DNA of 64,000 nucleotides from Sipunculus nudus (lineage: Eukaryota; Annelida; Sipuncula; Golfingiida; Sipunculidae): contig CM049306.1 of assembly GCA_026874595.1 (NCBI GenBank), forward strand, positions 84,098,142-84,162,141, in the 5' to 3' direction. Under the pieces are notes generated by a model. That model was given only the letters and a program-made list of their open reading frames with translations, was not told the DNA's origin and did no database searches. Made by a program: the position numbers and the translations under genes. This document shows positions 2,417-63,715 of this stretch, piece by piece. How positions within the stretch are numbered: the stretch's first letter is position 1; each line of letters opens with the position of its first letter.

Positions 2417-2473
<57 letters not shown>

Positions 2474-7346: not shown

Positions 7347-7379
<33 letters not shown>

Positions 7380-7463: not shown

Positions 7464-7471
7464 TTCATGTT

Positions 7472-17112: not shown

Positions 17113-18452
17113 AGGCGTAAAAAAATTCTTTGTTTCCGGTTACCCGACCGACCCTAGATTTACTGTGCGACCCTAAAATTTTTATTTGGATTCTGATTGC
17201 AAAACCAGTAAAAGTCGAGGTTTGCGCGTGGAATTTTTAGGTGAAGTACGACTTAATGTCGACAACTTTAATCTGTCATACAGATACAAATTACGATACT
17301 CTGAGATCGTCGCTGACAGTTCAAATATACCCGCGAAAACGGCGTGTGGACGGTCATAAGTGGGTTCGTCAGCTTAGAACGTAGTTCTGCGCAACAACTT
17401 TTTTTAATTTATAGGAAGCAGATAAATATCAAAAGTGTTCCACTGGAGAAATGAGCAGCTTCTTTCAAGCTATGAACGTGGCCTCCTCCGCGAATGTCTG
17501 ATAGCCGTGACCGTCTGAGAACTGATTCGAGATCGTTCAAATTTGCCCTAAGCCCCGAAAATTTTCATCTTCCGTAGTCATCTTCCGTAAGGCCTCATTA
17601 ATGGCCCGCTTGTATGCACGGTCGCTAGTCGGCAATTTTCGGAAGTGAGTGCCATCTTCGGCTATGCAAATGAGTTGAAATGAACCAATGACATTACGTT
17701 TCGTCACTGCATGTAACCGTGGTTACCTATTCGGGTACATATGTACCCGTATTTGTTCTGTCAATGATCACCTGAACCTGCGCTTGGGCGCTGGCAGGAG
17801 TAAAAACGAACGATTTAATGAACGTTGGCCGGCCATTTAACGAAAAGTCAAACGCAAATTTGGCGGTAACACATGGTGATCATTCATTTTCGGCGATATT
17901 TTTATATAACGGCGAAAAATGATAAGAGCATATCCATAACTGCGAAGTCAAATTTGACACCGGCGGATTGCCGATGTACATTTCTTATTTTAAACAAATA
18001 TACCGATGTTATGATCACTTTAAATTTATTTCCCCTCAACTTAATGCGTGCGTACTACATCATGGTTCAACAGTGTCATTTCGCAATTTCTGAGGGCGAA
18101 TGAATGGCCGGCCGCTCATGTTAGCCTAAGAAAGTAAACCTGCCTGATCGCCAACTTTAATTATTTGTCAGCGACCAGCTAATCATTCCTTAAAGTTACT
18201 TCGCTTCACTTCTTATAAGAGATTGAACAAACACCTATTTCTCCAAGAGAAAATGGTTCTAATGGGTCAATATTTGACCATACTGTACACGGATTGGCAC
18301 AGATATGCATGAACATAATTCTATTTACCATTTTATTCTGAAAATATGTCGCATAAATTGAATAAAAGAATTAAAAAAAAAAAATTCCCCGACCTACCTT
18401 CCCTATTTTTCTCTGACATGTAATCGGAAACAAAGACCTTTTTTTTTAGGCC
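17113..18452. mobile_element. DNA transposon remnant with inverted ends, ~1.34 kb
   Basis: The left end reads TTAGGCGTAAAAAAATTC, then TTTGTTTCCGGTTACC. The right end is the inverted counterpart, AATCGGAAACAAAGACC then TTTTTTTTAGGCCC. The interior contains a second inverted pair around GGCCGGCC (near 17,828 and 18,105), pointing to nested or composite structure. No transposase frame is visible, so it is non-autonomous or gutted. Confidence 0.65.
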
Positions 18453-22888: not shown

Positions 22889-23170
22889 CTATAGGGAACT
22901 GTAGACCCGAGCAGCATGGTAACGTATATCCTCATTCTCGTGTTTACTCAACACGAAAACCTTGCTGCGCACATGCATGCTTTCTTTCATCCCATATAGG
23001 GCGCTGTACATTGTCTCTGGAGATGGAGCCTTATAGTCTGTCGGAAGTGATGCATAGGTGATACCTTGTTCCTTGGCAGTGTGCATTATGTTACCTAGCA
23101 ACGTCAGCCATCGAAGCAACAGATCAGTACTTGTGTCTGGTACAAGTAGTTCCAATACACAGCTGGGAGC
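22889..23170 (-). CDS. ARMC10: Armadillo gene exon 5 (terminal coding)
   Basis: Residues 515-607. It begins after TTTCCAG with APSCVLELLVP and ends ARVYSSL then TAG. The block LLLRWLTLLGNIMHTAK matches the last armadillo helices of the ARMC10 family (LLRVLTLFQNIKNCLK in human), followed by the conserved charged C-terminal helix (KHENEDIRYHAARV). Phase 0 start fits the preceding exon. Confidence 0.9.
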   Translation of the reverse strand, partial: APSCVLELLVPDTSTDLLLRWLTLLGNIMHTAKEQGITYASLPTDYKAPSPETMYSALYGMKESMHVRSKVFVLSKHENEDIRYHAARVYSSL

Positions 23171-41100: not shown

Positions 41101-44100
41101 ACTACAAAGCTATGCAATTCTCCAATCCCACATAAAAGAACTGGACTTTCTCACCTGACAGGATGTGAAGGCAGCAGCATTTTGTATTGTCTTGAGGACT
41201 TTCTCCAGAAGATCATAATCTCTGGTTGACAATAGGCTGACCAGCACCTGTGCCTCCCGTGGTCCTAACTCTCCAGGCCTCCTCTGGACATTTTCTAAAC
41301 ACTCTGTGGCATCTTCCTCTGATACTCCTTCATCTTGCTCCTGTGGCTCTGCTTCAGCTTCCTCACCTGATGCCGATGATGAAGGCTCCACAGAGGCCTC
41401 TCTTTCTGTCGCAAAGATGTCAGCTTGGTTAGGCAAATCTTCTCTGTCATCAAATCCAAGCAATGGAGCTCTCTCTAAAACTTGTTCAGGCACTTTAGAA
41501 GGAGAAACTGAATCTCTTGAAGACTTGGCACTTTGTGGAACTTCTTTTGTTTCATCAGTTTCACCAGCAGGTGGCACTTCTGCAGTTTCACTGCACCCAA
41601 TAGCCTTCAGGGCTTCTTCAAAAGGTGTAGAACCAAAAGGATCTCTTGGGTCACCTGTTTGTTCGTCTTTTTCTACTTTAACCCAAGATGACGGCTCACT
41701 CTTCTCTGGGGACAAAGAAGAAGCACTTTGGAAGGAGCTATTCTCTTCAACATTAACCCAGCTTGATGGTTCACTATTAGTGTTCCCCTGTGACTCATTA
41801 TCTGCAGAATTTAAGGAATTTAATTTTTCCTCAACAAAAGCCACATCCTGGATTGAGGACAGATTATTCACTAAATTTCGGAAACTATCCTGTGTACTTG
41901 ATGGGGAGCTGAAGGCTTCACTGAGGCCATTTTCTGAGGTATTCCTCGTTGGAGGAGGAGCACTGGGAATGGGAATATCACCTGCGGCGGGAACCACAAT
42001 GTCACGTCGGTAGTCTCTGGACTGGTACTCTGTCTCATGATCCACATCTTCAATGCTGAATGTCAGGTGTGGGGAATTTCCTGTTTGCTCATCACTCACA
42101 GATTCTTCTTCCTCTCCTGATTCTTTTCCTTTTGCAGTTTTCCTTGCCTGGGATTCTGTAAAGAAACCAATAATGAAAATAATCCCTCTTTATTATACAA
42201 ATGATTTTCACACTGTACATTATCTAAAACAATATCAATTTCAAAACTACCATATTAATAATTTTACATTTATGTTATCTTAAATTTGAATGAAGATATA
42301 AGAAAAAAAAAACATGCATGAGTTTTTTTTCACTCAATCTTGATATCATTCTAGTCCTGTACATTTCACTTAAGACAATTCATAAATCTTATAGGTTTGT
42401 TAAACTGAAGTTTTTTTTGCTTTCTGTTACATGTTAAGATATGACAGAAAGTACTTATCTGGAGGAGGAAATATATGTTTGTTTAGAGGGGAGGTCAGAT
42501 ATTTTTTAAGTTTTTTAATTAACAAACTGTAATACTAAATATATAATGTTTGCTTTAAATACATAAAAAAAATTTACTTTGGCTTTATGTATCCCACACT
42601 GATGGTGTAAAAAACCTGGGTTAACAGTCACTAAGTAATACTTTATGGCTGAACAAACAACTGACCAATGGGTCATGATGCTCAGCTGACTGGGAAGAGA
42701 TTCGCAAAAGGAAATTTTATCATCAGAATGGTAGTATATACCCATTCAACTGAAGCATCAAACAGATTAACCAACAGGCCAAGATTTAGTCTGTATTTAT
42801 ATCTCAAAAATAGAGAAAAAATGTGTAAACTTTAAAAACCAGAATACAGGTAACTGACAAGTGACTACATGTATCCGCCAAAATCAGAGTGGAACGGGTG
42901 AAGTGAGGCATGGATTGAGTGGCAAGGAAAAAATAGAGTGAGGTATGTTGCATATTAGCATGGATGTCTGCAGCCTAAATGTGTATGTAGGTTGTGCCAC
43001 CTACCACAAATCCAGAAATCTGTCCAAGTTGTATGCATATGCAAAATTTTAGGCAGAAAAGTCAAACCACTACATGTATATGAGTGATTTTAGCCCACGG
43101 CAGACAAACAGACGGACGCTGTGCAAAATTGGTGGCAGGTGACCCCTCCAGTCTTGTGTATGATAAAGACCTATGTGAGATCTAAACACATGCACAATTT
43201 TGGCCCAATCAGTCAAAGGGTTCCTTAGATATGAGCTTGGATGTGTGCAGCATTAACTAGAATGTAGGTGGCGCCACCTGTCAAAAAATCAAGAAAGCTG
43301 TCCAGGATGTATAAACCTGCAAAATTTTAGGCAGTTATGTCGAACCACTACAGAGAAATGAGTGATTTTAGGCCACGGCAGACTAACAGAGAGACGCTGT
43401 GCAAAATGTGCAAAAATGGTTGCAGGTGGCCCCTCCAGTTTGATGTATGATAAAGACCTATGTGAGATCTATACACATGCAAAATTTTGGCCCAATTGTT
43501 CAAATGGTTCCCGAGATATGAGCTTGGATGTCTGCAGCATAAACTAGTATGTAGGTGGCGCCACCTGTCATAAAATCAAGAAAACTATCCAGGATGTATA
43601 AAACTGCAAAATTTTAGGCAGATATGTCAAACCACTGCCCAGATATGAGTGACATTATCCCACGGCAGACAAACAGACAGATGCTGTGCAAAAATGGTTG
43701 CAGGTGGCGCCACTATTTTTTGTGTATGTGATAGAGCTATCAAAGGGCTACATTTGTATCAATTTTATTTCCTGATCGGTCAAACGATTCCCGAGATATG
43801 AGCTTGGATGTCATCAGCGTGAATGTGAATGTAGGTGGCGCCCCCTGTCATAAAATCAAGAAAGCTATCCAGGATGTACATGCATGACGAATTTCAGGTG
43901 AATTAGTCAATTCACTGCAGAGATATTAGTGATTTTAACCCAAGGCAGATGAACAGATGGACACTGTGCAAACATGGTTACAGGTGGCACCACTATTTTT
44001 TGTGTATGTTATAGAGCTATCAAAGGGCTACATTTGTATCAATTTTATTTCCTGATCGGTCAAACGGTTCCCGAGATATTAGCTTGGATGTCATCAGAGT

Positions 44101-50100: not shown

Positions 50101-53100
50101 AGAAGAATGAATGTAGCACCTAAAATAGCCTTTGTATACAAAATTTGAAATATCCAGTTTGGTTGTAATTGTATCCTCTAGGAATACCTCATTCCTGGGG
50201 GTGGATTATGGAGGGTGCAAGGAGGCTTCCCATCCCCTTCATTTGACCAGAATATATTTGTGGGACAACATTTCAAACATTTGGGGCCCAGAGAGATTTA
50301 TTACTTCTTCAGGGATGTCAACTTCCAAAAGTTTTATCGAGGTACAATGAGTGGGTTTGAACAACAAGCTTAAATTTGCAACATTTAATACACTTTGATT
50401 CATTTCATATTTTTGCATCATTTACATCACTCTTTTGAAAAAGAGAAGGAAAGGATAACCCTGTTCTTAGATTCTGAATTCCTGCATCTATATAAATATA
50501 AATAGAGAATAATGAGTCTAAGCTTTTCAGATCTGTGCACTTTTGGACAGGCACTGTAATATGATATACAAATATTCCTGACCTACATGCAAAGTGATTA
50601 ATTCACAGTGAAAGGGGGTTCCACATTATCAGATGACCTCATTTACATCAGATGACCTCATTTACATTTAAATGTTTGAATATGTACTGCAGCACTGCCT
50701 ACATCTCTGGTCTAAACACTGACTTGAAAATTATGTTATTTACTACATTCACAGGAAATGTCTAAAGGCTTTATCAGATTTTTTGTATTAAAAGAATTAA
50801 GACCTGGTCAATAAGGAAAAAATTTCAAACACTAATACTACATTAAACCAGAATACCAAACCAAAGCAAATTAACGGTGCACTGGGTTCATATAGTCAAT
50901 ATATTATGAATTTGGCCCTACATAATGAACAAGGAACTACTCCTCCACCACTTTGAGGATAGTTTCACATTCAACAGAGCCAAAGTCATTAGTAGCCAGT
51001 ACTTTATATGTCCCACTCATCTCTAGCTCAGCACTCTGGATCACTAGAGAACATTTTTTGTTTCCTGCTAGGAACTGATATACAGAGGTGTCCCAGATTT
51101 GCTCTTCATCCTTGAACCAGGTTACCAGGGGGACGGGGTCTCCAAAGAATTCAACCATCATCTCACACGAGTCACCTTTTTTAATAGTGAATGGCTGTAA
51201 CTTTGATGTGAATTCCGGAGCTTGACCAACTGCAATGAGAAAATAAAGGTAGATTTTACAATAAATCCTACATGTTTTGCATCATCATTCAGTGTGGCTT
51301 TGATAAATTGGGAACAAATTTATAAAGGTATAAGAGCCCATATATTATGGATAAAATGATCATAATGTAGTAAACCCTTTTTTATGCAGGTAACTGACAG
51401 AATATCATTCCTTGAACCAGTCCTACCTTTCTCTACAGTCAGCTGAGCCTGACTCACAACTGATCCAGCTTCGTTCTCAGCCTTGGCTTTGTAAGCTCCA
51501 CCCATATCTGGGCTTGCACTGTCAATCAAGAGAGTGAACCTCTTTCCATCAGTGATAAACTTATAATTTACAATGTCTAGAATCTGGTCTCCATCTTTGA
51601 ACCATGTGACCTTAGGTACTGGATCACCCTCAACTTCAACCTCCAGTCTGCATGTCTCCTTTTCCTTAACAGTTAGTGGTTTGAGTTCCTTGCTAAATGA
51701 TGGTGCAATGGCAGCTGTAACAGAATGTTTATATTACGTTTTAAAGCAATATTAAAAAAAAATGTTAAAATTATGGTGACCTTCATATATTATGCTAAGA
51801 AATTATGAAAACCAGAGTAAAGACACATTTGCAGACATGTTCAGCTTTAATGCTCGCAGGCACTAATACCATCTTGATCTATTCAATAAACAATATTCTA
51901 CATATATTCTATATATGTATATTTTTTTATATACTTATTCCGATTACTCCTCTGACTTTGAAATGTCAGTGTTCATCTTAAGGTGAATCAGTAAGTAAAC
52001 TGTAATCACCTTTCTCTACAGTCAGCTTTGCCTGGCATTCTTTAGATCCAGCCTCATTTTCTGCCCTTACTTTGTAAACTCCGCCCATATTGAGGCTTAC
52101 GCTGTCAATCGCAAGGGCAAACTTCTTGCCATTGGCCATAAATGCTGCTGTGTCTAGGATTTGGTCCCCATCCTTGAACCACGTGACCTTTGGCATTGGT
52201 TCCCCCTCAACTTCAACCTCCAATCTACAGGACTCATTTTCTTTGATAGTCAGTGGTTTGAGCTCTCGGGTGAAAGAAGGGATCTTGGCAGCTGTGACAG
52301 AAATGATCAAAATTTTTCTTAAAACATGGCTTAACTGACAAACATTATATAGTACACACTTTAAGTTCACTCACACAGAGTTACAGCAGCTGAACATTGG
52401 TATAACTCTTGAGCCGGCCTAACATACCGGTAATATCTTCATGCAAGATCATAATCATAACCATTTTAAAAGGGAACAGATGCAGGGATTCCAGTTACAC
52501 TGGACAACTACACAGCAAGCAATTTTAAAAGCAGCAAACACTTGGCCCTCTGCATAGTGAGAGTTAACCAAAGGTTCAAATATCTCTGCACTGACTTTTG
52601 ATTTTGAACCTTTTTGACTGTCAAAAAGTTTCCATACAACAGACCAAAAAGCTTTATAAATTGTTTTTTCTATAAGTTATAACATATTTTATGGAAATGT
52701 TTATAGTATTTACTAAATCATTTCATGTATCAATTTTTCTCTTTCCTTTTTAACAGGTGACCTTTTAAGAGAGTATGGAATAATTATCTGCATTGTACAT
52801 GATGTATTTAAGATAAACTGTGTCATATGACCAACCTTTCTGTATTGTCAAATCTGTGTTGCACTCCACCTCTCCATGCTCATTGGTTGCTTTAACAACA
52901 TAAGCTCCGCCTATATCCACCTCTGCCCTCTCAATCACAAGGATTGCCTTGTCTTCTTCCTGCACAAACTTATACAATGAGGATTCCACTATCTCCTGGT
53001 TGTCCTTGAACCATGTCACTGTGGGTGCAGGGTAACCAGAAACCACAACTTCCATGCTGCATTTCTCTCCCTCCTTCACTTTCAGTGGTTTGAATGACAG

Positions 53101-56100
53101 CTTGGACTCAAATACTGGTGGCTTTCCAGCTGTAAAATAATAAGCAAGAAGCAACTTTAAAAGATAATTTTATTATGAGAGATTTAATATCTAAACATTA
53201 CTTGACTTCAGATTCTAAGTTGATATTTAGCATTTATTCATCTAAACATTAGTCACTCAAGCAGGCACAGACACAGGATATAATAGACAACTAATTACAA
53301 ATTTCTAATGGTATACCCATGTGCCATCCAGTTTTTAGTGTATATACAAACTGACAGTGATTTGAGGAACTGGGAGAAATATACCTGTCAAGGTTCAAAG
53401 AGATTGTTAAGATGCAACACAAAAATACTCTGAGGACAGCTTTCAGAATCTATCTGCGGAGGGAGTTTGGTGGCAAGGGGATGTGCATCAGCAACGTTTA
53501 GAACAGAATAATGCTTTTACTGGACCACACCCATATACTCATATTACAACAGGATTAATGTGAAATCAATATGTCCAGACAACTTTCATGTATCGCTTTT
53601 CAAGTATTTCATGTATTACTTTCATGTAATTTTCTCTTTGACATTATGCTTGAAGTTAACAATAAAAGAATTGGTTAATTTTTATAGAGAGGGACAGCTG
53701 TAAACTATAATATATATGGAGAAACCCATATGGGTGTGGGGGATACCTGATATGTAAATGAGTGGACTGTCCAAATGAAGATGAACAAAGTTGATTAAAA
53801 GATTAGCCAAAAATAAATACCTTTCTTGACAGAGAGTAGACTGCTGCATTCCTCAGAGCCTGCTTTATTTGTTGCCTTGACAACGTAAGCTCCACCCATT
53901 GACACATCAGCCTTGTCAATCACCAACATAGACTTGTTCCCTTTTGTAATGATCTTGTATTCAAAGCATTCAGTGATCTCCTGGTTGTCTTTGAACCATT
54001 GGATTGTGGGAGCAGGGTCACCAGTCACCTCCACCTCTAGCAGACAATGTTCTCCTTCAAGAACACCTACTGACTCTGGCTTAGTCTCAAATGCTGGGGG
54101 GACACCTCCTATAAAACAACAGGTTGTAAGGGTCATTTTACAGAAAGTTTATGTAAACAATATGATGAAATAAAAGCACTGCAAGGTACACAATATACAT
54201 GTCCTAATACATTTAATTCCTGCTGATATATATGGGTAAAACCAAAGAGAACTCTGGAAAATGACCTCTGGCCTCATTAAATATGCAACATTTTGTCACA
54301 TATTTAAATCCGGTGAGATACTTTGATGGTAAACATTTGGAAAGTTTCTTGAAAATCCATCAAAATCCTGGTAAGTAATTTTGGTGACACTGAAAGGTTA
54401 ATGGGGGACAGCAGTATGAGATGGGCATATGAAAACACTAAATTAAAGTGTGGTAGAATATTGTACTTATATGTATGCTAATTATTATGTAAACAAAACC
54501 AAATTTGGTAGCTGAATATGTGATTTAAGCACCAAGCACCAGCAAGCATCAAGCAAAACAAATCTTTTTTATCAGTTTACTTCCATTATGAGAATATTAC
54601 AGAGAATCTGACCAGTCCAGTACACATTACTTGCTTATATGACATGTGGAAAATGTTGACATATTTGTACTTTCATAGCTATGTTTGATTTAAATGACTG
54701 ATGCGATTTCAGCCCCATCACAGTTAAGCTTATTCATAATACATAATACAGCTGCCAGCCTTTAAGGGCAGGGCTGCCCTTTGGAGCATGGTCTATTCAC
54801 AATTGAGTGATAGCCTCGTTTACAGGTATGGCTTGCGTCCTCATAATTACAAGCTTTTAAATTACCTGATTAGTCTGCCTATCATGCAATTTTTTAAGGT
54901 TGATTCCCTTTAAAAAATTAGAAGAAAAATTCAAGTTTATATAGGTTAGACTGTAATCATCTATCCTGGATTTGTGTATGATGTCTTGTGATTGCATCAG
55001 GATTTGAAGTTCTTAACATGTATCTGACTGACAAACTTTTATTTTTTTTTAAAACCAAGCATATTTGACCTCAGCCCCATGAGAGAAACCACTAAATAAA
55101 CAACTTATCTCCATCTGAGGTGATTTTCTGAGTTCAGTATGAATTATGAACTTCAGTATGAACTCTATGTGATTATTTGGAATCGGTAAGCACCACACAA
55201 AAGCACTGGTAAGCATACCAAAATGGAAGGGTAAAATACAGTTTCTGGTTTGAGTTTGTGATTCAAGACCATCAAATATTTTCAAAACTTAATCTAAATA
55301 TTCACAGTTATGATTACAAATTTTTACATGATTTACATGAAAACGCATGCATAAAATTCACCTTTGTCAACATAAACTTTGGTGCTTGCCTTGGCAACTC
55401 CAAAGGCATTTGCAGCTTTGATGGTGTACTTTCCGGCCATTCCAGTCTCCATATTTTGACAACAAAGGATAGATTTGTTATCTTCCCTGGTGATCTTGAA
55501 GATTGAAGACTCTTTGATTTCTCTTCCATCTCGGAACCAGACAGCTTTGGGATCAGGATCTCCAGTTAGTTCCGCTTCCAGCTGACAGGTGTCTCCTTCT
55601 ACCACTATCACTGAGTCTTCCTGCAGAAGCTTTACATCTGCGGGAATGCCATCTGTGATTGACAAAAAACAAAAATAACATTATGAGGGCACTTAGAATT
55701 TTAAAAATTATGCAGTGTTAATATACACGTAAGCATACAGTTTGTAATTTACAAAGTTGTTTTGTTTATTACTTCATCTTGTTTCATTCATGATAAAGGT
55801 TTCTTTTTTAAAAATATTTTAGAGAATTTGACCTCTTGACAACTTAAGATCAAGTTATTTGTATCTTCATTAGATAGTTAAACATATTAAAATATGTGCA
55901 ACTTTACATGAAGACTCACTATTGCCTGGGAGTGTAATTCTGAGGGATTTTAAATAAATACATAACACCTTCTGAGCAGTGAAATAAATAACTGAGCTTG
56001 ATCAATATAATCAATATTAGCAAACTTCAGTTTTATGTGTGTGAACTTGCATTATATTATAAAGCTATTAAAAATGTTATACCTTATGAAGCCAATTCCT

Positions 56101-59100
56101 TGGATCCAACATGCAGGATTTGTTGTACAAACGTCTCATTAAAAATGAGGTGAAAAACATGCACACGCCTAAAAAATCAGGTCTCTCTGTTGCCATGCCT
56201 GTCCAGGATAAAAAAAAGCTTGCTGTTAAACATAAAAGTTTTATTTACATAGTTAAAAGTTTTCCACAGTGAATTTAAATATCCTGGTTATGGAATCTGG
56301 GCAGATAACCATCAGTGGGGCTATAAACAACAAAATTAAGTTCAACATTCTGAAATATGGGTCATCAACACATATAATTAAACCAGAAAATACAACTCAA
56401 AGATAATATTTTAATACAATAATAATTCCTTTAATTTAGCAAATCATTTATGTCTCATGAGGCCGGTTTTACAGAGTTTTGCACTCACAGATGTAACAGC
56501 TACTTCCCAAATTTGATGCTATTCAATTATATATAAGTAACAAAAGTTGTCGATATTAAGGCAAATTTCTTTCTAAATTTACTGTTGTGCTTTTAAAAAT
56601 AATAGATTTATTGTAAAATCTACTAATTTAAACAAGAAGCTGTGATTTGGTATGCTTTGGGATAACCATATTCTTTAATTAAATGGATTTTGAAAAACCT
56701 TCATGATTTTCTTCTCTTTTAAATATTTCACAAAGGGTTTTTTAATTGCTTCTATTGTATCTAATTTCTAATGAGGTTTGGTATTTTAGTTGTTTATTAC
56801 AAATAAGGGTGACAGCAGTACAGAAAACAAAAGCAATGCTGTCAAATTTACAGGAACAAACAACAATACAATGCACAAACACTCTTTATTCAGAATAAGC
56901 TGTTATACAAAGGATTACATGCTGCTAAAACTGCTCACAGCCATACATACCTAACTAGTAAACTAACTACCAGTACACATGTGTTCAGGTGTAAACCACC
57001 CTCTCCAAGTAACTTAGGTGCAGTTGCAGTGGTCCTCAGAATATGTATGATGTCCCATTTCTCAATATGTTAGCTATCAAATCAGAGGGCATCTACGGCG
57101 ACTATAATAATAACATTTGGGTCCAGAGGAGAGATAAATTACCAGTATTTGAAGTGATATTGCTTCCTAATTCTTATCAATTTACAGCTGTAATACAGAA
57201 CTATGATGTAAGCCATTATTTGCTGCCATCATTATAACAATGATATATCTGCCTCACATTCATCTATCACAAAAAAGTTCTCATTGCCAAATATCAGGAA
57301 ATTGCAATATCCTTTAATCGAAGAAAGACAAGAAATCATATTCCTCTCTCTAATGGACATTTGGTTTGACACAGAAAGAATTATTAATAGTCACATAAAA
57401 TGACAACTATCTAAACCTATTGTTATCTCTAGTTTTATATGTCAGTAGAATAAAATAAAATTATAGACAGCCTGACAGGTCAGTCACTAAAGGTACCTGA
57501 TGGACCGACAGTGACCCTACGATCAAGAGGCAAGCAACTTCATTTACTCAGCAACCAAAAAACAAAACTATATCATACCTTATGCTATTACCTATGGTAT
57601 TACACAAATCATATACTGAAAATAACCCAGACTGTACCAAAAACTTTCAACTGGACTCTTTTCGTAACACTTTCACTTTCTGCAGTTGAATCTTTGTTAT
57701 ATAAATCATTTACTTATGTCTGCCAATGATAAATACTCATTACTGATTGCTGAAATGAAAACAAGAAAAGACAAAATGTCTGATGGGTTAAGTTTTACAA
57801 ATGTAGTGAGTCCACAAACTAACAAATAATATATATTCTCAGGAGTCAGAAAACAATTAAAAGGATACACCCATACCTATAGGTATCATTTATGGGAGAG
57901 ACGAAACACTGAATGACTGACTTTGTCTGAGTCATGACAGACACATCAGTGAAATGGTTATAAAACTTAAGTCAGCCCTCATATGACCTCAAGATGATGG
58001 GATTTATTTGCAGTGGTTTAAATATTTAAAAAATAATTTCAAAAATATCTTTACTAAGATGAAAGATGTATTGATCAATAATGTTTTGGATACCAATGAG
58101 TTTTAATATTTGAGGTATATATGGCTGTGAGCTCATGCACAATAATGTTACCAGAAGCATGCATAACGCTAATATAAACCATCTTGAAATCACAAATACA
58201 TATTTAAGGAAATCTATATTATTAAATACATCCTGACAAATACACAATCTATACTAGCCATTCATCTAATTATGTTTGGATAATTTTTTCAAGACTTTCT
58301 TAGATTTTTTTTAGTTTTGGGAAAAAAAGCAAATTTCCACAATTTGAATTTTACAGACACAGGCCAACATTAGCAAATGTCTTGACTCTTGTTGTCAGTA
58401 AAACCTCATTTAATTTGTTGGTGGGAAAATATCATGAAAAAAATGGCAGTCCATTTACAAAACAATATTATTTAGTTAATGTGCTAAATAATTGTGGATA
58501 ACAGTACCTCTCTCTGATTTGCAGATATATATCACTTAAATACTGATATGAACAGAAATGTCTGCATGAACATATATCATTCAGATGTATCCATATAATA
58601 ATACTTTCAATGTTTTCCTGTGAGCATGGCATAATTATGTATTAGTATGCAGCTGGTATGCCCCGGGTTTAAATTGTAGGACTGTTAATGCAAATAAAAA
58701 TCAATGATTTGGTCAAATAAAATTAAAATAAGGTGAGAGGTCTATATTTTGCTATCTTAATATTGCAAGAAATAAATAAAGAACCTCTAAAATAGTGTAT
58801 GTATTAATATGAAGGGAAATATTGCAATGGAAATAATATGTTACAAATGTAAACAAATAATTGAAGACTGGGTTATGCTTCATATGTAATCACAACCACT
58901 GGGATACATAACCAGAGAACATGGTTATAGATGATTTTGATTCTTTGAAGCCATCAGGGGATTGAAGATGTAATCCCTTGGTAACACCTGACCACACTAC
59001 CAATCAGTTTATATCATTAGCAGATATTGAACACTTTCACTTATGTAATGTAGTAATAAGTAATGTTATAGTAATATTTGTATTAAAAAACAGTACCACA

Positions 59101-59477
59101 CAGATTTGTTTCATATCGAATCCTAAATAAAAACACCTTGGAAAGCACAGATATAAGTTAATTAATCTCCAACAACAGGAGGGACGGGGGGTACCAAATG
59201 ACATCTGGAATTTGCAATTTGTGGAATGACAGTGATAACTGACGTTCTAAGTAAGGAAGTTGGGATCAAGATCTCACTCCTCAGGATTTTGACATGACAT
59301 ATCTATACACATTTAACTACTTTTTGTTGATTGTCATTTAAATATTTTCTTACCAGCCCCCTCTTCTTCTCTTTTTCGTTTTCTCAGAAGTAGGTAGTTG
59401 TAGCCAGCAAACATAATACCGGCTACAACCGCTACGAAAACGGCCGCAAGGCCTCCTCGCATGCTTTTCCCCGCCAT
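22889..59477 (-). CDS. ARMC10: ARMC10/ARMCX-like membrane-anchored armadillo protein (five exons)
   Basis: The model joins exons 59,477-59,354, 42,155-41,155, 35,497-35,330, 24,188-23,940 and 23,170-22,889. All borders are GT/AG, phases agree (1, 0, 0, 0), and the total is 607 residues. Residues 1-41 form a hydrophobic anchor (GLAAVFVAVVAGIMFAGY) followed by RKRKREEE, so the C-terminal body should face the cytosol. Residues 42 to about 330 are acidic and low-complexity. From about 335 to the end is an armadillo domain of the ARMC10/ARMCX type, with NNLAMNTANQKELK, LQALTNLSV and LKVLVNLSTNADMV aligning with the corresponding helices of vertebrate ARMC10 as I know it. Family members are tail- or signal-anchored on the mitochondrial outer membrane and act in mitochondrial dynamics; that role is inferred here. 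The protein is longer than vertebrate ARMC10 (about 340 residues) because of the acidic linker. The 17-kb first intron contains a complete Ig-domain exon set that shares exon 1. Confidence 0.85.
23171..23939 (-). other. Intron 4 of the armadillo gene
   Basis: GT/AG intron of 769 bases. Nothing else is recognised in it. Confidence 0.8.
23940..24188 (-). CDS. ARMC10: Armadillo gene exon 4
   Basis: 83 codons, phase 0 on both sides, residues 432-514. It starts DCIPTLIDFAVSEK after TTTACAG and ends HLLAAR before GTAAGT. It contains two armadillo repeats with the family motif LxALxNLS (LQALTNLSV and LKVLVNLST). Confidence 0.92.
24705..24885. repeat. Solo left part of the family-B tandem-cored element
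   Basis: AGGCCTACAGGCTCAATGA and later GTGCAATGAGATTACACCAG, ACATGTGTAACATGTATATG and AAGTACTAAACA line up with 62,525-62,700, where the same left end is followed by an array of repeats. Here the array is missing, so this is a truncated copy. Confidence 0.65.
26190..27475. repeat. Tandem-cored element, ~670-bp unit, two copies (family E)
   Basis: A block beginning GTCAAAGTTGGGCAAAATTTAAGG (26,235) recurs at about 26,900. Both copies share TTTTTGACAAAGTGCATTATGTT-like text and a segment ending near TTGGGGACATCTAACACTATG. The second copy ends in ACGGACGGACGACGG, then the hairpin TAGCTCAGATGACTTATAG/TCAGCTGAGCTA and AAAAAACTAG. Hairpin followed by CTAG resembles the 3' end of a Helitron-type element. 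Partial copies flank another element at 33,600-33,686 and 34,848-35,270. Confidence 0.65.
27479..28253. mobile_element. HINE/pearl-like tandem-cored element, family A copy 1
   Basis: The left end has AGAATATGGATAGTCAACAAG and CATGTATCCGCCAAAATCAG. The core has alternating half-units with GGTGGCGCCACC. The right end has GGAAACAGACGCACAAA, GGTCAGAGGTCAA, TTCTCCGGAAAC and a GTATCCGC / GTGGATAC hairpin that inverts the left TATCCGCC. The same ends appear in copies 3 and 4, which defines this as a discrete mobile unit. No coding capacity. Confidence 0.7.
28256..28660. repeat. Family-B tandem repeats, right-end type
   Basis: Units of about 115-130 bases carry GGTGGCACCA(C/T)CAGTCTTGTA. They are followed by the same right end found at 63,270-63,350 (GCACTGGGCTGAC, GGCAGTTGCCC, ACAAATTGC). 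This is a mate of the element at 62,517-63,350. Confidence 0.6.
28664..28912. repeat. Degenerate ~35-bp minisatellite
   Basis: ACTGAGTGAACTCTTGACCTG(C/T)ACCTGG-like units occur three times from 28,670 to 28,765, with another near 28,878. A longer AGTCTGCCAAAGCTATRAATAGA motif is interleaved. Confidence 0.65.
29440..30507. mobile_element. Tandem-cored element, ~190-bp unit (family C)
   Basis: Three related blocks share AACCATTTGAACAAACTTGA, AGGATCATTTCTGTG and GAGAAGAAGAT. One GGTGGCGCCACC lies at about 30,008. The right end is a run of ACGACGCACGAC-type triplets leading to GCCGCCGCACCATCGCATAAGCTCAC, a typical terminal structure of invertebrate tandem-cored elements. It abuts the next family-A copy. 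Confidence 0.6.
30513..31640. mobile_element. Family-A element copy 2, 278-bp higher-order array
   Basis: It starts AGAATATGGGTAGTCGACAAGCG. The marker GACGCTGTGCAAAAATGG recurs at 30,767, 31,045, 31,323 and 31,601, exactly 278 bases apart each time. Each 278-base unit is two diverged half-units (about 125 and 153 bases), each with GGTGGCGCCACC or a close variant. The last two copies are almost identical, indicating recent amplification or conversion. The usual right end is missing. Confidence 0.8.
31641..33599 (-). other. Intron 3 sequence without recognised repeats
   Basis: Mostly ordinary AT-rich intron. 32,230-32,259 on the minus strand holds a short ATG frame (MAMASSEKLK) ending in phase 0 at a GTATGT donor, a possible alternative first exon. 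33,270-33,435 is a more GC-rich patch with a GA run that I could not assign. Confidence 0.4.
33687..34845. mobile_element. Family-A element copy 3, inserted into a family-E copy
   Basis: It has the full left end (ACTAGAATACAAGCGACAAG, then GTGTATCCGCCAAAATCAG), about seven half-units with the GGTGGCGCCACC core or variants, and the right end (GTGTGGAAACAGACGCACAAA, then CAGAGGTCAA, then GGGGGCGGATACAATAAA). GGCGGATAC at the right inverts GTATCCGCC at the left. Family-E sequence resumes after the element, so it landed inside that repeat. Confidence 0.75.
35330..35497 (-). CDS. ARMC10: Armadillo gene exon 3
   Basis: 56 codons, phase 0 on both sides, residues 376-431: KTLSDAGCLKKLHHLLRAHS through NTANQKELK, before donor GTATGG. 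It holds one and a half armadillo repeats (VVSGVATTINNLAMN matches ALNALNNLSVN of human ARMC10). Its acceptor, TTTTTCAG/AAGACACTTAG, is the innermost member of a tandem array of near-identical acceptors just upstream. Confidence 0.9.
35484..35970 (-). repeat. Minisatellite made of exon 3 acceptor plus exon start, 11 copies
   Basis: The unit is 48 or 44 bases and reads, on the minus strand, TTTTACAG/AAGACACTTAGTGACG, then CTGGCTGTTACACATATTTT. Acceptor-equivalent positions are 35,497, 35,545, 35,589, 35,637, 35,681, 35,727, 35,775, 35,823, 35,867, 35,915 and 35,963. The 44-base units lack the CTTA of the exon part. Only the copy at 35,775 has lost its AG. The array therefore repeats both the polypyrimidine-AG of the splice site and the first ~20 bases of the coding exon. 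Confidence 0.92.
35971..41154 (-). other. Intron 2 of the armadillo gene
   Basis: No further conserved exon is seen. 37,700-38,400 looks like decayed interspersed repeat, with several TGTGACCTT(C/G)A(C/T)-type phrases and TTGATGGACAGACAGGTGGA. 38,972-38,989 on the minus strand (MDPEEM, then GTGAGA donor, phase 0) is a candidate alternative start exon. Confidence 0.5.
38972..38989 (-). CDS. Candidate alternative first coding exon of the armadillo gene
   Basis: ATG in the context GACAATGG opens six codons (MDPEEM) that end exactly at ATG/GTGAGA, a good donor, in phase 0. That is the phase needed by exon 3. A transcript starting here would make an armadillo protein without anchor or acidic linker. 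Such short frames arise easily by chance, so this is only a candidate. Confidence 0.2.
41155..42155 (-). CDS. ARMC10: Armadillo gene exon 2 (acidic linker and first repeat)
   Basis: The 1,001-base exon begins phase 1 after TTTACAG (completing GAA with the G of exon 1) and ends phase 0 before GTGAGA; residues 42-375. Residues 42-60 are charged (KTAKGKESGEEEE). Most of the rest is acidic, Ser/Pro-rich and probably disordered. It has a near-repeat EPSSWVNVEE (W174) and EPSSWVKVEK (W199), which resemble LC3-interacting WxxV motifs of mitophagy receptors. The last ~40 residues (REAQVLVSLLSTRDYDLLEKVL and QNAAAFTSCQ) start the armadillo domain, matching LLESTEDPVIIERAL and NNAAFSVNQ in human ARMC10. 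Confidence 0.9.
42156..42837 (-). other. Part of intron 1, nothing recognised
   Basis: AT-rich intron with no repeats or exons I can support. Confidence 0.5.
42838..44850. mobile_element. Family-A element copy 4 (longest), ~280-bp higher-order array
   Basis: Left end AGAATACAGGTAACTGACAAG, then GTATCCGCCAAAATCAG. The core holds about twelve half-units; GTAGGTGGCGCCACC-type starts at 43,831, 44,111 and 44,390 give a 279-280-base period in the right half. Right end GTGTGGAAACAGACCCACAAA, GGTCAGAGGTCAA, CTCTGGAAACGAACG, then GGCGGATCT. The left and right halves of the array belong to different subtypes (GCCCACGGCAGACAAACAG versus CCCAAGGCAGATGAACAG), so at least two expansion events occurred. 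Confidence 0.8.
44858..46575. repeat. Tandem array, ~337-bp unit, five copies (family D)
   Basis: CAGTCTGCAGAAAC-type starts lie at 44,872, 45,221, 45,560, 45,896 and 46,233. Each unit starts with AGGTGGCGCCACC(A) or a variant and contains ATGGGTAACAGAGACCTAAT and AGATTCTAGGTCCAGT. The array ends with GGACGGACAGACGGACAG and a TATAGCTCAGATGACTTTCAG hairpin close to the one ending family E at 27,475. It starts directly after family-A copy 4. Confidence 0.88.
46576..49729 (-). other. Part of intron 1, nothing recognised
   Basis: About 3.1 kb of AT-rich sequence. I found no exon with matching phase and no clear repeat. Confidence 0.45.
49730..49985. repeat. Dispersed repeat, copy 1
   Basis: GACAATCTATCTGTGTAGAG and GGCCAGGGGATGTGTATCAG correspond to diverged counterparts at about 53,445-53,500 (AGAATCTATCTGCGGAGGG and GGCAAGGGGATGTGCATCAG). 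A shorter third match (ACCACACAAAAGCACTGG) lies near 55,190. Family unknown. Confidence 0.5.
50297..50302 (-). terminator. Poly(A) signal candidate of the Ig isoform
   Basis: AATAAA on the minus strand, about 640 bases beyond the TAG that ends the sixth Ig exon. It supports the Ig exon set having its own 3' end rather than splicing on to the armadillo exons. A second possible signal is at 49,972-49,977. Confidence 0.4.
50937..51229 (-). CDS. Ig exon 6 (terminal, I-set domain)
   Basis: Residues 523-619 of the Ig model. It starts VGQAPEFTSKLQPF after ATTGCAG, with VTWFKDEEQIWD in the C strand and GTYKVLATNDFGS in the F-G region. The frame closes with TAG where the other Ig exons have a G/GT donor. 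No in-phase donor is seen, so this is a genuine terminal exon. Confidence 0.85.
50937..59477 (-). CDS. Membrane-anchored protein with six I-set Ig domains (seven exons)
   Basis: Exons 59,477-59,354, 55,652-55,362, 54,108-53,821, 53,129-52,836, 52,291-52,010, 51,714-51,427 and 51,229-50,937 join in phase 1 throughout and give 619 residues. Exon 1 supplies the anchor and RKRKR. Each later exon is one I-set domain with the WF(K/R)D signature, and the last ends LKVVEE then TAG. All six domains lack the usual B- and F-strand cysteines, as in cytosolic Ig domains of titin/twitchin-type muscle proteins, so the array probably lies in the cytosol. I know no named family with this layout. Sharing exon 1 with the armadillo gene is inferred from phase and from the absence of any other upstream exon; the Ig exons could instead have an unrecognised start exon of their own. 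Confidence 0.65.
51427..51714 (-). CDS. Ig exon 5 (I-set domain)
   Basis: 96 codons, phase 1 on both sides, residues 427-522. Begins AAIAPSFSKELKPLTVKE; contains VTWFKDGDQILD and GAYKAKAENEAGS; ends LTVEK before GTAGGA. It is the closest relative of Ig exon 4 (same PKVTWFKDGDQILD and AENEAGS), so the two are a recent tandem duplication. Confidence 0.9.
52010..52291 (-). CDS. Ig exon 4 (I-set domain)
   Basis: 94 codons, phase 1 on both sides, residues 333-426. Begins AAKIPSFTRELKPLTIKE; contains CRLEVEVEGEPMPKVTWFKD and GGVYKVRAENEAGS; ends LTVEK before GTGATT. Two residues shorter than exon 5, otherwise nearly collinear. Confidence 0.9.
52836..53129 (-). CDS. Ig exon 3 (I-set domain)
   Basis: 98 codons, phase 1 on both sides, residues 235-332. 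Begins AGKPPVFESKLSFKPLKV; contains PTVTWFKDNQEIVESS and GGAYVVKATNEHGE; ends LTIQK before GTTGGT. Most similar to Ig exon 2 (WFKDNQEI, GGAYVVKATN). Confidence 0.9.
53310..53525. repeat. Dispersed repeat, copy 2
   Basis: Diverged counterpart of 49,730-49,985, in the intron between Ig exons 2 and 3. Shared text includes AATCTATCTG and GGGGATGTG(C/T)ATCAGCAA. Confidence 0.45.
53821..54108 (-). CDS. Ig exon 2 (I-set domain)
   Basis: 96 codons, phase 1 on both sides, residues 139-234. Begins GGVPPAFETKPESVGVLEG; contains PTIQWFKDNQEITECF and GGAYVVKATNKAGSEE; ends LSVKK before GTATTT. Confidence 0.9.
54109..55361 (-). other. Intron between Ig exons 1 and 2
   Basis: 1.25 kb. A fragment near 55,180-55,215 resembles the dispersed repeat at 49,860. 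No other structure recognised. Confidence 0.5.
55362..55652 (-). CDS. Ig exon 1 (I-set domain)
   Basis: 97 codons, phase 1 on both sides, residues 42-138. After AATCACAG the exon opens with AT, which completes GAT with the single G left by the anchor exon (D, then GIPADVKLLQEDSVIVVEG). Contains KAVWFRDGREIKESS and GKYTIKAANAFGVAK; ends VYVDK before GTGAAT. The I at the usual F-strand Cys position and A at the B-strand position show the missing disulfide. Confidence 0.88.
55653..59353 (-). other. Intron after the anchor exon
   Basis: 3.7 kb of AT-rich intron. I looked for another coding exon between the anchor and the first Ig domain and found none. Confidence 0.5.
59354..59477 (-). CDS. Anchor exon (exon 1), shared by the armadillo and Ig isoforms
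   Basis: ATG in the context ACAATGGCG opens 41 codons plus one base, ending GGGGCTG/GTAAGA. The product has a short N-terminus (MAGKSMR), about 20 hydrophobic residues (GLAAVFVAVVAGIMFAGYNY) and a strongly basic flank (RKRKR). This signal-anchor layout is that of ARMC10/ARMCX proteins on the mitochondrial outer membrane. The leftover G joins in frame to GAT (Ig exon 1) or GAA (armadillo exon 2). Confidence 0.88.
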
Positions 59478-59764
59478 TGTACCCTTGGTCTTAGCCTTGA
59501 AGGGTGTCGCAAAAGAAAATGTATTGCAAAGTGGAGTTTTTATCGCGCAATAAAATTTTACAGCAAATATAAGGAACTGTTACAGTTTTTATTCATTTTA
59601 AATATGAACTGGTATATTGATTAATAAAACAGATACATCTTATTTATTTTTTTGTAATCCCTGGTGCGTGGTTGCATGATGTCGCTCACTCACGGACCGT
59701 TTTCTGTTAACGTTCCTATTTATGGTACAAAGTACAACACAACATTTGTTACGGATACGGACAA

Positions 59765-59822
59765 TTCTCTCTCTCTCTCTCTCTCTCTCGGGGGGGGGGG
59801 GGGGGGAAGGGGGGGGGGGGGG
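59765..59822. repeat. CT microsatellite joined to long G runs
   Basis: About 12 CT units run straight into 17 G, then AA, then 13 G. This could form triplex or G-quadruplex DNA. It lies about 290 bases upstream of the anchor-exon ATG. Confidence 0.95.
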
Positions 59823-60158
59823 AGTTGGAGGGATGACTTAATAAGTAAATCTTATAAATGATTAATTTTTTATACATTTGTTTCTATTTTTATTTCGGCC
59901 AGTTATATATGAAAGATTGTTTATGTAATTTATGAAACTTTTCGGCAATCAACTTTCATTCATGATGGATTTATTATTTAAAAATTAATTAATTAAAAGC
60001 TTAAGTACAATCTGCAAAATAATTTATCAGACACACCCACATGTCAATTCAAATGCCATCTGCAATCACTAATGATTTAAAGAAAACAGTAAATATTTTA
60101 GTTCCCACCATCTCCCTGATTAAAAATCAAAACAATAATATATTATGCAATATGTACG

Positions 60159-60162
<4 letters not shown>

Positions 60163-60215
<53 letters not shown>

Positions 60216-60217
60216 TA

Positions 60218-60257
<40 letters not shown>
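60163..60257. repeat. TA microsatellite
   Basis: About 95 bases of TA with one interruption (TACTAGTA near 60,213), 410 bases upstream of the MRPS25 ATG. Length is probably polymorphic. Confidence 0.95.
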
Positions 60258-60262
<5 letters not shown>

Positions 60263-60671
60263 GCCCACTTAGATTTTAATTAACAGAAGTAACAAAGGAA
60301 ATTAAAAATAAATATATGAGATATAAATATTATATAAAAATACTATTTCTGTGAAGATAACAGATATATTAAACTCAATCATTTATTTTCAAAGGCTTTT
60401 AAATACAAAAGTTCCGCGCGCGGATTCTTCTTTTTTTTTGGCTTTCCCCTCCAGGTGATGGACAAAATTTTACAAATCCAGGGGAACCCCACGTGTTTTC
60501 ACGGACACTGTGCTCCAAGGTTCATTCCGTGTTCCTGACTAAATCCGTGTTTTATATTGTAATCTGTTCATGGTGAATGTCAAGGGCAGGCGAACGTGCA
60601 TGATGATATTGTTTACATATTTCTAAAAATATTGGCAGTGGTTGAATAAATATAAATAAAATATAATAAAA

Positions 60672-60814
60672 ATGCCTTTTATGGTAGGAAGAGGTGCCAT
60701 GAGGCGCACCGTGGACTGGTTACAAAAAGGAAAGCTTATACTTAAAGATGACGTAAGGATTATGACATTTTTCTTCAACTCCGGTGACAGCTTTCCACAC
60801 CACGAGGGTCTCAC
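60672..60814 (+). CDS. MRPS25: MRPS25 exon 1
   Basis: 47 codons plus two bases. Start ATG follows an AT-rich leader. The frame reads MPFMVGRGAMRRTVDWLQKG through HHEGLT and ends CTCAC/GTAAGT. The first ATG matches the length of the human N-terminus. Confidence 0.92.
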
Positions 60815-63715
60815 GTAAGTCAGTTCAGTCATTCTCCATCCAGCGGCAGCGGGTGTCTCATTATCAAGCTCAACTTTGTCACTGTAATTCCCCCATACAT
60901 CATAGTCACCCTGTTCTTTTTTATAAACTATGGAGATGATTAGCTTCACTGATTAATGATTATATATTTACATTGTTAGTCAAGCTATATAATTTATAAT
61001 TTATAAACTCATAATTATAAATTATCTTAGTCATAATTCGTATTGATAGTAACTTAAATGATGATAACAATAAATTATTAATAATAAATTTAATTTATTG
61101 TGTAGGCCATAATGTACCATTATCTGGTTTAGATCTGCAGTGTGTTTAAACTTCAATTTTTTGGAAGATAATTAAAAATATTTATTTCATATTGTTCATG
61201 TAGTTTTTTATATTAAAATAATTAATACGTCAACAAATATGAAATTCCTTTTAAAAAGTGCCACTGAAAATTATAGATTGCCCCTGACAATTTGTTAATA
61301 ATCTGCTTATATATAATTATGAGAATGGTCTATGGTATAGCAGGTGTACAGTGTGTTTTTATAAAATATTTTTCTTCAACAATCACACTGTTTTAATTTA
61401 CATTATAACCTGGTTTTTACAACCTGTGCATTCACCAGATTTGCATGCTGCCCAAAATAATTGTCTATTCACTTTATTTTACCTTGACTATTTTCCCCCC
61501 AACAAGCTTGTGTGGAGCCACTATAGGACGCGGGCTTCGCTTCTATTGATTTTATATAAATAAAACTGTCTCCTCTCTTTCCCTATTCTAACTTCTACTT
61601 TTCCCTGTAGATGTCCATACACTCAACTCTCTTACATTAACAACCACTAATCATCAGAAGTCGCCTGAATGGGGAATCGAACCTACGATCTCTAGACTAG
61701 GAGCCCTACACGCTACTAAGTGAGCCGTGAAGACAAGATACCATGAGGAGCGAGTTTTGTTCATTTATATTTGCGATTGAAGTGCCATCTATCGCGAAAA
61801 TGGGAAACCATATACTATTTGAACAGGAAAATAAAGCTTTAGGTGGGGGCTCCGCCCCCACACACCCGTTCAGACGGGGAACCCAGGTTCCCCGGACCCC
61901 TCCTCCTCTAATATAATAAACTCCAGTTATGAGCAAAATTAAAATCAGAATTCTCAGGAAAATAATATGTATCGGCCTTTTTCAGGAAACAATTTATTAT
62001 GCGACACCCGTTGTGAATAAGGTACCGGTGGTAGGCTGAAGCCCGGTTTCTATAGTTCTGCCGCTTGTGTGTATGTTGTTATTATCTAAATAAGGATCAT
62101 TATTTTGCAGCTGTAATAATATGCAGTGTACAAAGGCAAGGTGACACTACTTTAGTAAATTATCATATTTCCAATTTTATACTGTCAGTTAACTGCTATC
62201 CTTACTCATAGGCATGGTCTTGATGTGGTCTTGATGTTGGCTAGAGATTCTGGTTACACTGTTTCAGATTTAATTATTAATTTATATTCATCAGTGTTTT
62301 TTATGACCTTTGGATAATGATTTGTTTTTTATTGATTTTCAGGTCATTTGTATTTTGGCACCTGCCACAACTAAAATACAAAAACCCATGTCTTCAGGTG
62401 GTCACCTTCCAGCGGATGACTCCATCTCCCTTCATCAAGGCCTACCTAGGTTAGTAACATCTAGATGTTCAACAAGTGTGTGTGTATATATATATTTAAT
62501 AAGGATATCTTATTAAAATGGAATTAAGGCCAACAGGCCTAATGAGAACCAGTGCAATGGGATATACCATGCTGGACAATTACTTTTCACGTACACATGT
62601 GACATGTTTATGTAAAATCCAAGTAAGTAGTACTAAACATATTGAACCCGAATATCAGCACCATTTACTAAAGGTCAATCCTAAAATACTGGCATGGATA
62701 TTCACAACACAAAATTATTGTAGGTGGCACAACCAGTCTTGTATACAAGAAAGCAAAAGATGTATGGACATGCAAAATTTCAGGCAGATACTTCAAACTC
62801 TTGGGCTATGTGCACAGATGCATGAAACCCCGAAAAAATTGTAGGTGGCACCACAAGTCTTGGATACAACAAAAGTATCCGAGATGTCTTGCAATGCATA
62901 ATTTCAGACTATGTAAACCATTCCTGAGAAATAAGCAGGAGCATACACTGTGCAAAAATTAATTGTATGTGGTGTCACCAGTCTTGTATACATCAAAGCT
63001 ATCCAAGATGTATACATATGCCAAATTTCAGGCTGATATGTCAAATCACTCCTTAGGAATAAGCAGGAGCATACACTGTGCAAAAATTATTGTAGGTGGT
63101 GCCACCAGTCTTGTATATGATTCAGGCTGATATATTAAATCCCTTCTGAGAAAAAAGTAAGGACATACACTATGCAAAAATTATTGTAGGTGGCCCCACC
63201 AGTTTTATGTACAAGAAAGCCATCAAAGGTGTTTGGACAGGCCAAAATTACAGGCAGATACATCAAACTTCTCTTGGGTCAGGTGCACTGGGCTGACCAA
63301 GATCAGCTGATGCAGGCAGTTGCCCAAGTGAACTGGAACAAATTGCCAGTTCTATTATTACCCTATTTCTGTTACCTTCTAACTGTACTTATTTCAGGGC
63401 TGATGATGCTTCTAATATATCATCTTTAGAACTGAAGGCACGGATCAGGGTTTGGTCCATTTAACAATTTTAGCTGTGAAAAGCAAAAATCATGCATCTC
63501 TTTTACCAAGAGAAACATCTATGATTGGCAGCTGACAACACATGGCCCTCTTACTAATGTAGTTGGGGGACTTGCTACAATAAACATGCTTTCTGTGATG
63601 GTACACATTTCTTTGTATGTTTCACAGACTCAGAAGAAACCATCACCATCGACTGTGATAGCAGAAGCAGAATAGATATCCACGACCACATCCAGAAAGT
63701 ACTTGGAAAATCTGC
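60672..63715 (+). CDS. MRPS25: Mitochondrial ribosomal protein S25 (mS25), 5' three exons, partial
   Basis: Exons 60,672-60,814, 62,343-62,449 and 63,628-63,715 join with matching phases (2, 1, 2) and GT/AG borders to give 112 residues plus a partial codon. The protein opens MPFMVGRGAMRRTVDWLQKG and continues with VRIMTFFFN. It then has FVFWHLPQLKYKNP, the MTPSPFIKAYLDS block and IHDHIQKVLGKS. These align in order with human MRPS25 (FFNIPQIQYKNP, MTPSPFLRFYLDSGE, IMEHIRKILGKN), a small-subunit protein of the mitochondrial ribosome with a thioredoxin-like L51/S25/CI-B8 fold. The remaining ~60 residues lie beyond the right edge of the window. Confidence 0.93.
61650..61728 (-). repeat. tRNA-derived SINE head or tRNA pseudogene
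   Basis: On the minus strand GGTTCGATTCCCCA (reverse of 61,670-61,683) is a perfect B box, and GGCTCACTTAGTAGCG 30-45 bases before it is a degenerate A box. The predicted cloverleaf stems are poor, so this is a SINE head or decayed tRNA rather than a working tRNA gene. Confidence 0.6.
61843..61894. repeat. Two adjacent perfect GC-rich hairpins
   Basis: GTGGGGGCTCCGCCCCCAC (8-bp stem, 3-base loop) and CGGGGAACCCAGGTTCCCCG (9-bp stem, 2-base loop) lie 13 bases apart. They may mark the end of a transposable element related to the neighbouring SINE-like sequence. Confidence 0.85.
62343..62449 (+). CDS. MRPS25: MRPS25 exon 2
   Basis: After TTGATTTTCAG, one base completes ACG (T), followed by 35 codons, SFVFWHLPQLKYKNPCLQVV and TFQRMTPSPFIKAYL, and a final G before GTTAGT. 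This is the most conserved part of mS25. Confidence 0.94.
62517..63350. mobile_element. Family-B tandem-cored element in MRPS25 intron 2
   Basis: The left end (GGAATTAAGGCCAACAGGCC, then GTGCAATGGGATATACCATG) is shared with 24,705-24,885. It is followed by five degenerate units of about 105-130 bases with GTAGGTGGCACCACCAGTCT near 62,722, 62,842, 62,968, 63,093 and 63,187. The right end (GCACTGGGCTGACC, GGCAGTTGCCC) is shared with 28,598-28,655. Orientation matches the copies in the neighbouring gene. Confidence 0.7.
63628..63715 (+). CDS. MRPS25: MRPS25 exon 3
   Basis: Two bases complete GAC (D), then SEETITIDCDSRSRIDIHDH and IQKVLGKS follow, ending with GC before GTACGT. It matches [20 protein letters not shown] and IRKILGKN of human MRPS25. 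The intron after it runs out of the window. Confidence 0.93.

Follow-up and report, generated by a model that had tools for sequence, protein, structure and literature searches.

A membrane-anchor exon possibly common to a six-immunoglobulin body and an ARMC10-like armadillo body in Sipunculus nudus

Can one short exon encoding a membrane anchor serve as the beginning of two unrelated proteins? The question is raised by a locus of Sipunculus nudus in which an exon of this kind precedes, on the same strand, six immunoglobulin (Ig) exons and the body of an armadillo (arm) gene. The locus lies in a stretch of 64,000 nucleotides (C1:84098142-84162141 of the 1.43-Gb assembly), hereafter the window, in whose coordinates the features of the locus are numbered. 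A preliminary description of this DNA had proposed that the anchor is joined either to the Ig set or to the armadillo exons. The layout itself, comprising the anchor exon, six Ig exons and arm exon 2 with compatible phases, is real, and we consider below which exons are likely to be joined and what such an arrangement might mean.

The anchor exon and the two sets of downstream exons

The first coding exon (59354..59477, minus strand, 124 nt) encodes the peptide MAGKSMRGGLAAVFVAVVAGIMFAGYNYLLLRKRKREEEGA and ends in phase 1 at the donor CTG/gtaaga. It specifies an N-terminal membrane anchor (best 19-residue hydropathy, 2.04), in which a short basic head is followed by a hydrophobic stretch and then by RKRKR. 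According to the positive-inside rule, such a charge pattern keeps the C-terminus in the cytosol, and the RKRKR motif behind the hydrophobic stretch thus predicts a cytosolic C-terminus for this anchor. A DNA search of the genome found no second anchor exon elsewhere, the sole match being the window locus itself, nor was there any processed copy with a spliced junction, a spliced 490-nt query having matched just its three separate exons. In the protein search, a weak match to the anchor and Ig1 (E = 0.026, 25% identity, one internal stop) was detected at C5:62257385-62257735 (+); it covers query residues 10-129, including most of the anchor, and further Ig matches lie nearby on C5. The remaining anchor coverage of note in that search corresponds to the window itself.

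An intron of 3.7 kb would separate the anchor from the first of six minus-strand Ig exons, all of which match the Pfam I-set family (6/6, E = 1e-17 to 5.7e-22) and were delimited by Pfam and splice sites. Ig exons 1 (55362..55652), 2 (53821..54108), 3 (52836..53129), 4 (52010..52291) and 5 (51427..51714) are of phase 1-1, whereas Ig exon 6 (50937..51229), for which the joined frame was also taken into account, is terminal and carries TAG in place of its sisters' donor, exactly as had been noticed before. The exons are 282-294 nt long, each of the six acceptors has AG, and the five internal donors read AAG/gt, that of Ig exon 5 being in frame with arm exon 2 as well. Joined together, the anchor and the six Ig exons yield 1860 nt, that is, 619 amino acids and a stop codon, without internal stops and with no content other than the anchor and six Igs. 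The AATAAA motif previously placed ~640 bases further on is indeed present, 635 nt beyond the Ig stop (50297..50302, minus strand), but it is weak evidence of a 3' end because such motifs are common here, with seven AATAAA and five ATTAAA on the minus strand between 41 and 51 kb.

If the anchor is taken as arm exon 1, all six Ig exons are contained, on the same strand, in the first intron of the arm transcript, which measures 17,198 nt from the anchor to arm exon 2. Arm exon 2 (41155..42155, minus strand; acceptor ttctttacag/AATCCC, probable donor TGTCAG/GTGAGA) encodes an acidic linker and the first arm repeat and, starting from 42155, reads in frame from the anchor. It is followed on the minus strand by arm exons 3 (matched part, 35327..35494) and 4 (matched part, 23934..24200), the ends of both being approximate, and by arm exon 5 (22889..23188), which consists of the matched part at 22892-23188 and the stop codon just after it; exons 4 and 5 were placed by sequence match. 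Together, these exons represent an Arm_2 domain (PF04826; E = 2.1e-26, 93.3 bits versus a curated cut-off of 20.4), and the N-terminal membrane segment of the Arm_2 family is also present, provided that the anchor is arm exon 1. The arm gene is single-copy, as a genome search with the four matched exons at E ≤ 0.01 found these alone (11 candidates, 11 scored). Thus, two structural claims of the preliminary description are borne out: the anchor is in frame with both Ig exon 1 and arm exon 2, in phase 1 and with open joined frames, and the coordinates and splice sites agree with six phase-1 Ig exons located on the same strand within a 17-kb arm intron. The acceptor end of arm exon 3 lies within, or adjacent to, a tandem repeat of 48 bp (10.7 copies, 35475-35972), the unit of which resembles the acceptor and first bases of this exon (pyrimidine tract, cag, AAGACACTTAGTGACGCTGGCTG); judging from this resemblance, the 3' splice site of arm exon 3 seems to have been multiplied beside the exon by the repeat.

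Constraint, type and origin of the Ig domains

The distribution of stops and substitutions indicates that the Ig exons are under purifying constraint and have long been maintained by selection, because frame 0 is free of stops across all six exons, as opposed to 16 to 46 stops in each of the five other frames, and because dN is lower than dS throughout. For Ig4 and Ig5, the Nei-Gojobori method gives a dN of 0.18 and a dS of 1.46, the latter itself near saturation; in the 15 Ig pairs overall, dS is saturated in seven and ranges from 1.43 to 2.34 in the other eight, all of these values being rough estimates. Exons under such prolonged selection would require a start exon.

The F-strand Cys, the second canonical cysteine, is absent from all six window Igs. 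Igs without the second disulphide cysteine are typical of titin-like cytosolic proteins, and in a PDB search titin topped the best 60 of the 177 matched sequences. Domains of this kind would be fitting for an anchor that faces the cytosol.

Outside the window, the best genome matches of Ig2 and Ig3 fall into contig C16 at ~34.91-34.93 Mb, the five best being 46-54% identical, followed by C16 at ~14.97 Mb; the array at 34.91-34.93 Mb is also the first match of Ig1, at 34-42% identity. This array (C16:34912716-34930503) includes at least 11 I-set exons, with 855 of its 17,788 bases missing from the tile, and the F-strand Cys is lacking in 11 of 11. RhoGEF and PH exons precede it, in L042. The order RhoGEF-PH followed by many Igs is that of UNC-89/obscurin, and from this domain order we infer the identity of the C16 gene with UNC-89/obscurin; against it stands that the solved structures best matching the RhoGEF-PH part are those of DBS, Trio and Kalirin. 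The window Igs resemble UNC-89/obscurin in being intracellular-type I-set domains encoded by phase-1 exons and devoid of the F-strand Cys, but differ in that there are only six of them and that a membrane anchor takes the place of a giant scaffold. By these comparisons, the window set is obscurin/UNC-89-like rather than generic, and it probably originated when obscurin-like exons were duplicated, long ago, into intron 1. Within the C16 array, three of the last I-set exons (C9-C11) are younger, mutual duplicates, with dS values of 0.51-0.75.

Start exons, CpG pattern and competing readings

A six-Ig profile was run against the stop-to-stop frames of 264 kb, that is, the window and 100 kb on each side, and recovered these six Ig exons alone of this type, with the reservation that more distant Ig types could escape such a profile. 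The one other Ig trace, a 30-aa tblastn match with an E-value of 0.18, lies downstream of the window gene and on the opposite, plus strand. An upstream Ig gene running through the anchor was considered and rejected, as this profile detected no further Ig exon in the two 100-kb flanks of the window. Start exons were sought as contiguous frames leading from an ATG to a phase-1 donor, the donors being scored with a small matrix built from 15 donors, all of Ig exons. On the minus strand of the 264 kb, the anchor donor, which can be reached from two ATGs within the same exon, is alone in pairing a membrane segment with a donor about equal to or better than its own score; the plus strand has three donors with a membrane segment and a comparable score. 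A phase match alone is expected by chance in 1 of 3 cases. Since the 264 kb contain no further Ig exon of this type and the scan gave no equally good start exon with a membrane segment on the minus strand, sharing of the anchor is the favoured reading: to one transcription unit, with a common first coding exon and two alternative bodies, we assign, from the sequence, a probability of roughly 0.68.

The CpG content bears on the extent of this unit. CpG depletion is a footprint of gene-body methylation. In the Pacific oyster, methylation has been found to be mostly intragenic, introns included, and to be predicted by the observed/expected (o/e) CpG ratio (PMC3840415). At the anchor, a CpG-rich block (59001..61000; o/e 0.63, 0.94, 0.85 and 0.74 in four 500-bp bins) forms a probable promoter; dispersed-repeat matches were found neither in 59.0-60.9 kb nor in 55.7-59.0 kb. 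In 2-kb bins, the ratio is 0.13-0.53 in the 19 bins of 20001-58000 and 0.63-1.12 in the ten bins of 1-20000, so that the low-CpG stretch extends from the anchor to ~20 kb and matches the arm unit, the last matched exon of which lies at 22892-23188. Seven 500-bp bins inside the unit (20-59 kb) reach an o/e of at least 0.55, all of them in repeat-dominated stretches, where the bases recurring elsewhere in the examined DNA amount to 1498/1501 (27.0-28.5 kb), 3237/4001 (28-32 kb), 1272/1501 (33.5-35.0 kb) and 3085/3201 (43.5-46.7 kb); one more inner bin, 36501-37000, has an o/e of 0.52 and lies outside the repeat-checked stretches. Such a pattern suggests germline transcription from the anchor to ~20 kb, through the Ig exons and without a second CpG-rich promoter. 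It reports on the unit as a whole and cannot tell which exons are joined, and a CpG-poor, tissue-specific Ig promoter would be invisible to it. The 264 kb around the window form a mosaic of CpG-poor and CpG-rich segments, in which the edges at ~20 kb and ~59 kb match the gene unit. On the upstream side, CpG depletion also continues past 62 kb, where the region includes a SEFIR exon of the same strand. This exon, a long IL-17-receptor-like open frame upstream of the anchor (77176-78543 in window coordinates, beyond the window end; minus strand), matches the SEFIR domain with a Pfam E-value of 3.4e-30; the IL-17-receptor-like gene is an unlikely donor of the Ig exons, its open frame running to a stop.

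The rival reading that fares best, and which we nevertheless regard as unlikely, is that of two nested genes, whereby the Ig set would be driven by a promoter of its own and begin with a small exon in intron 1, and the anchor would belong to the arm gene only. In its favour, six distinct phase-1 donors preceded by an ATG-initiated frame of 3 aa or more are available in the 3.7 kb between the anchor and Ig1, including those after MIPI (score of 8.2, stronger than the 7.67 of the anchor donor) and MCT (7.7, about equal), and tissue-specific promoters need not be CpG-rich. When the minimum for the start frame is raised to 5 aa, only three distinct usable donors are left, all scoring below the anchor donor and none following a membrane segment. 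Moreover, over the 3.5 kb ahead of Ig1 the o/e ratio is 0.08 to 0.28 (500-bp bins), with no CpG-rich block, and the Ig1 exon contains no Met ahead of mid-domain. The earlier statement that the Ig set has no other start exon thus holds for exons combining a membrane segment with an equal donor, but has to be relaxed for tiny candidates such as MIPI and MCT.

Distinctly improbable is a cassette arrangement, in which Ig1-Ig5 would be optional parts of the arm transcript, producing anchor-Igs-Arm proteins, with Ig6 as an alternative terminal exon. Since phase 1 applies to the Ig5 donor as well as to the acceptor of arm exon 2 and the frame of the anchor-Ig1-5-Arm fusion is open, the exon phases could allow this third form; the normal acceptor and clean stop of Ig6, by contrast, favour a terminal body. 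Very improbable, in our estimate, is the converse of nesting, namely that the anchor is part of the Ig gene alone, with the first exon of the arm gene situated elsewhere, at 42.2-50.9 kb. That interval offers nine distinct phase-1 donors after start frames of at least 5 aa, and three candidate exons with donors as strong as that of the anchor or stronger, but none of the nine follows a membrane segment, whereas human ARMC10 is anchored by residues 5-27 (PMC6328551); in addition, the bins of high CpG at 43.5-46.7 kb consist of dispersed repeats, and the CpG-poor stretch begins at the anchor. Finally, the notion of the Ig set as an untranscribed copy of obscurin-like exons in decay, invited by its resemblance to a gene on another contig, is scarcely credible in view of the lack of stops, the splice sites intact in 6/6 exons and dN lower than dS.

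The central proposal of the preliminary description, one anchor for two bodies, is partly supported, as the preferred reading, by the phases, the failure of the scan to give a better start exon for either body, the CpG-rich block at the anchor with none ahead of Ig1, the intracellular-type Igs and the single-copy Arm_2 gene, but is to be amended in two respects, in that the Ig set appears to be obscurin/UNC-89-like and that anchor-Ig1-5-Arm is allowed as a third form.

Architecture, possible function and neighbouring genes

If the anchor exon is common to both bodies, transcription would start in the CpG-rich block at ~59.5 kb. In one outcome, the anchor donor would be spliced to the near Ig1 acceptor and the RNA would end after Ig6, resulting in a 619-aa protein composed of the anchor and six obscurin/titin-like cytosolic Igs; in the other, both the acceptor of Ig1 and the polyadenylation site of the Ig set would be bypassed and the same donor spliced to arm exon 2, resulting in an ARMC10-like protein. 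Both transcripts presumably exist, and the choice between them would be regulated.

The layout appears to be a variant of the architecture of the unc-60 and ChAT/VAChT loci, recognised here from the compatibility of phases and frames. The common exon of the cholinergic locus is untranslated, whereas that of the window would contribute 41 residues to each of the two proteins. The likeness to this locus lies in the VAChT exon(s) being placed within the first ChAT intron and in the common first exon (PMC3469465). In unc-60 (UNC-60A/UNC-60B) of C. elegans, a common first exon likewise precedes a complete exon series and then a second series, which is used when the first is skipped, and the switch is tissue-specific: in muscle, repression of the intron 1A 3' splice site by ASD-2 and SUP-12 causes exon 1 to skip to the second series (PMC3469465). 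Both unc-60 bodies, however, are ADF/cofilins, whereas here a membrane-anchor exon would be combined with unrelated folds (I-set Ig versus armadillo). By analogy with unc-60, splicing to the near Ig1 acceptor would occur by default, and the arm form would be made possible by a repressor or by weakness of the polyadenylation site of the Ig set.

Human ARMC10 is held in the mitochondrial outer membrane via residues 5-27 and is mostly cytosolic, its splice variants differing just after S45 (PMC6328551). The arm gene described here resembles it in the Arm_2 domain, the N-terminal membrane segment and the single copy, but differs in the long acidic linker encoded by arm exon 2. In keeping with the preliminary description, which knew of no Ig alternative in ARMC10 genes, none is named in the titles and abstract starts of the literature matches listed; the ARMC10 literature drawn on includes PMC8666550, PMC6328551 and PMC4776218. 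Nor does the name ARMC10 occur among the matches listed for molluscs, and the literature search returned no Ig-domain mitochondrial anchors. As in human ARMC10 (PMC6328551), the window anchor would probably insert into the mitochondrial outer membrane and leave its C-terminus on the cytosolic side, and because of the charge pattern of the anchor and the topology of the human protein, either body would face the cytosol.

Proteins of the obscurin family have been reported to influence mitochondrial shape in worms and mice: UNC-89 is required for the organisation of the sarcoplasmic reticulum, inactivation of its second kinase leads to fragmented mitochondria, and loss of Obsl1, which reportedly binds Chchd3, is associated with mitochondrial fragmentation (PMC12812942). 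Because the obscurin family thus seems to have membrane ties, we tentatively suggest, while considering it rather doubtful, that a mitochondrial outer-membrane anchor is common, by alternative splicing, to an ARMC10 body acting in mitochondrial transport and fission and to an obscurin-like six-Ig myofibril tether, and that the choice of splice site would turn motile mitochondria into sarcomere-bound ones. Under the preferred reading of a common anchor, the Ig rod would tie the mitochondrial outer membrane to the contractile cytoskeleton, probably that of muscle. Should this be the case, the common exon of an unc-60-like locus would carry a targeting signal, a single splice choice would deliver two unrelated folds to the same membrane, and mitochondria would be connected to a sarcomere-type Ig scaffold by a direct protein link.

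Two further open frames lie in the flanking DNA, on the side of the lower coordinates. A plus-strand frame of 413 codons (-71597 to -70359 in window coordinates) encodes a LEM domain (Pfam E = 4.2e-13) and has a hydrophobic stretch near its end, as in emerin/LEM-like proteins. On the minus strand, an uninterrupted frame of 1471 codons (-54104 to -49692) belongs perhaps, at a guess, to a mobile element.
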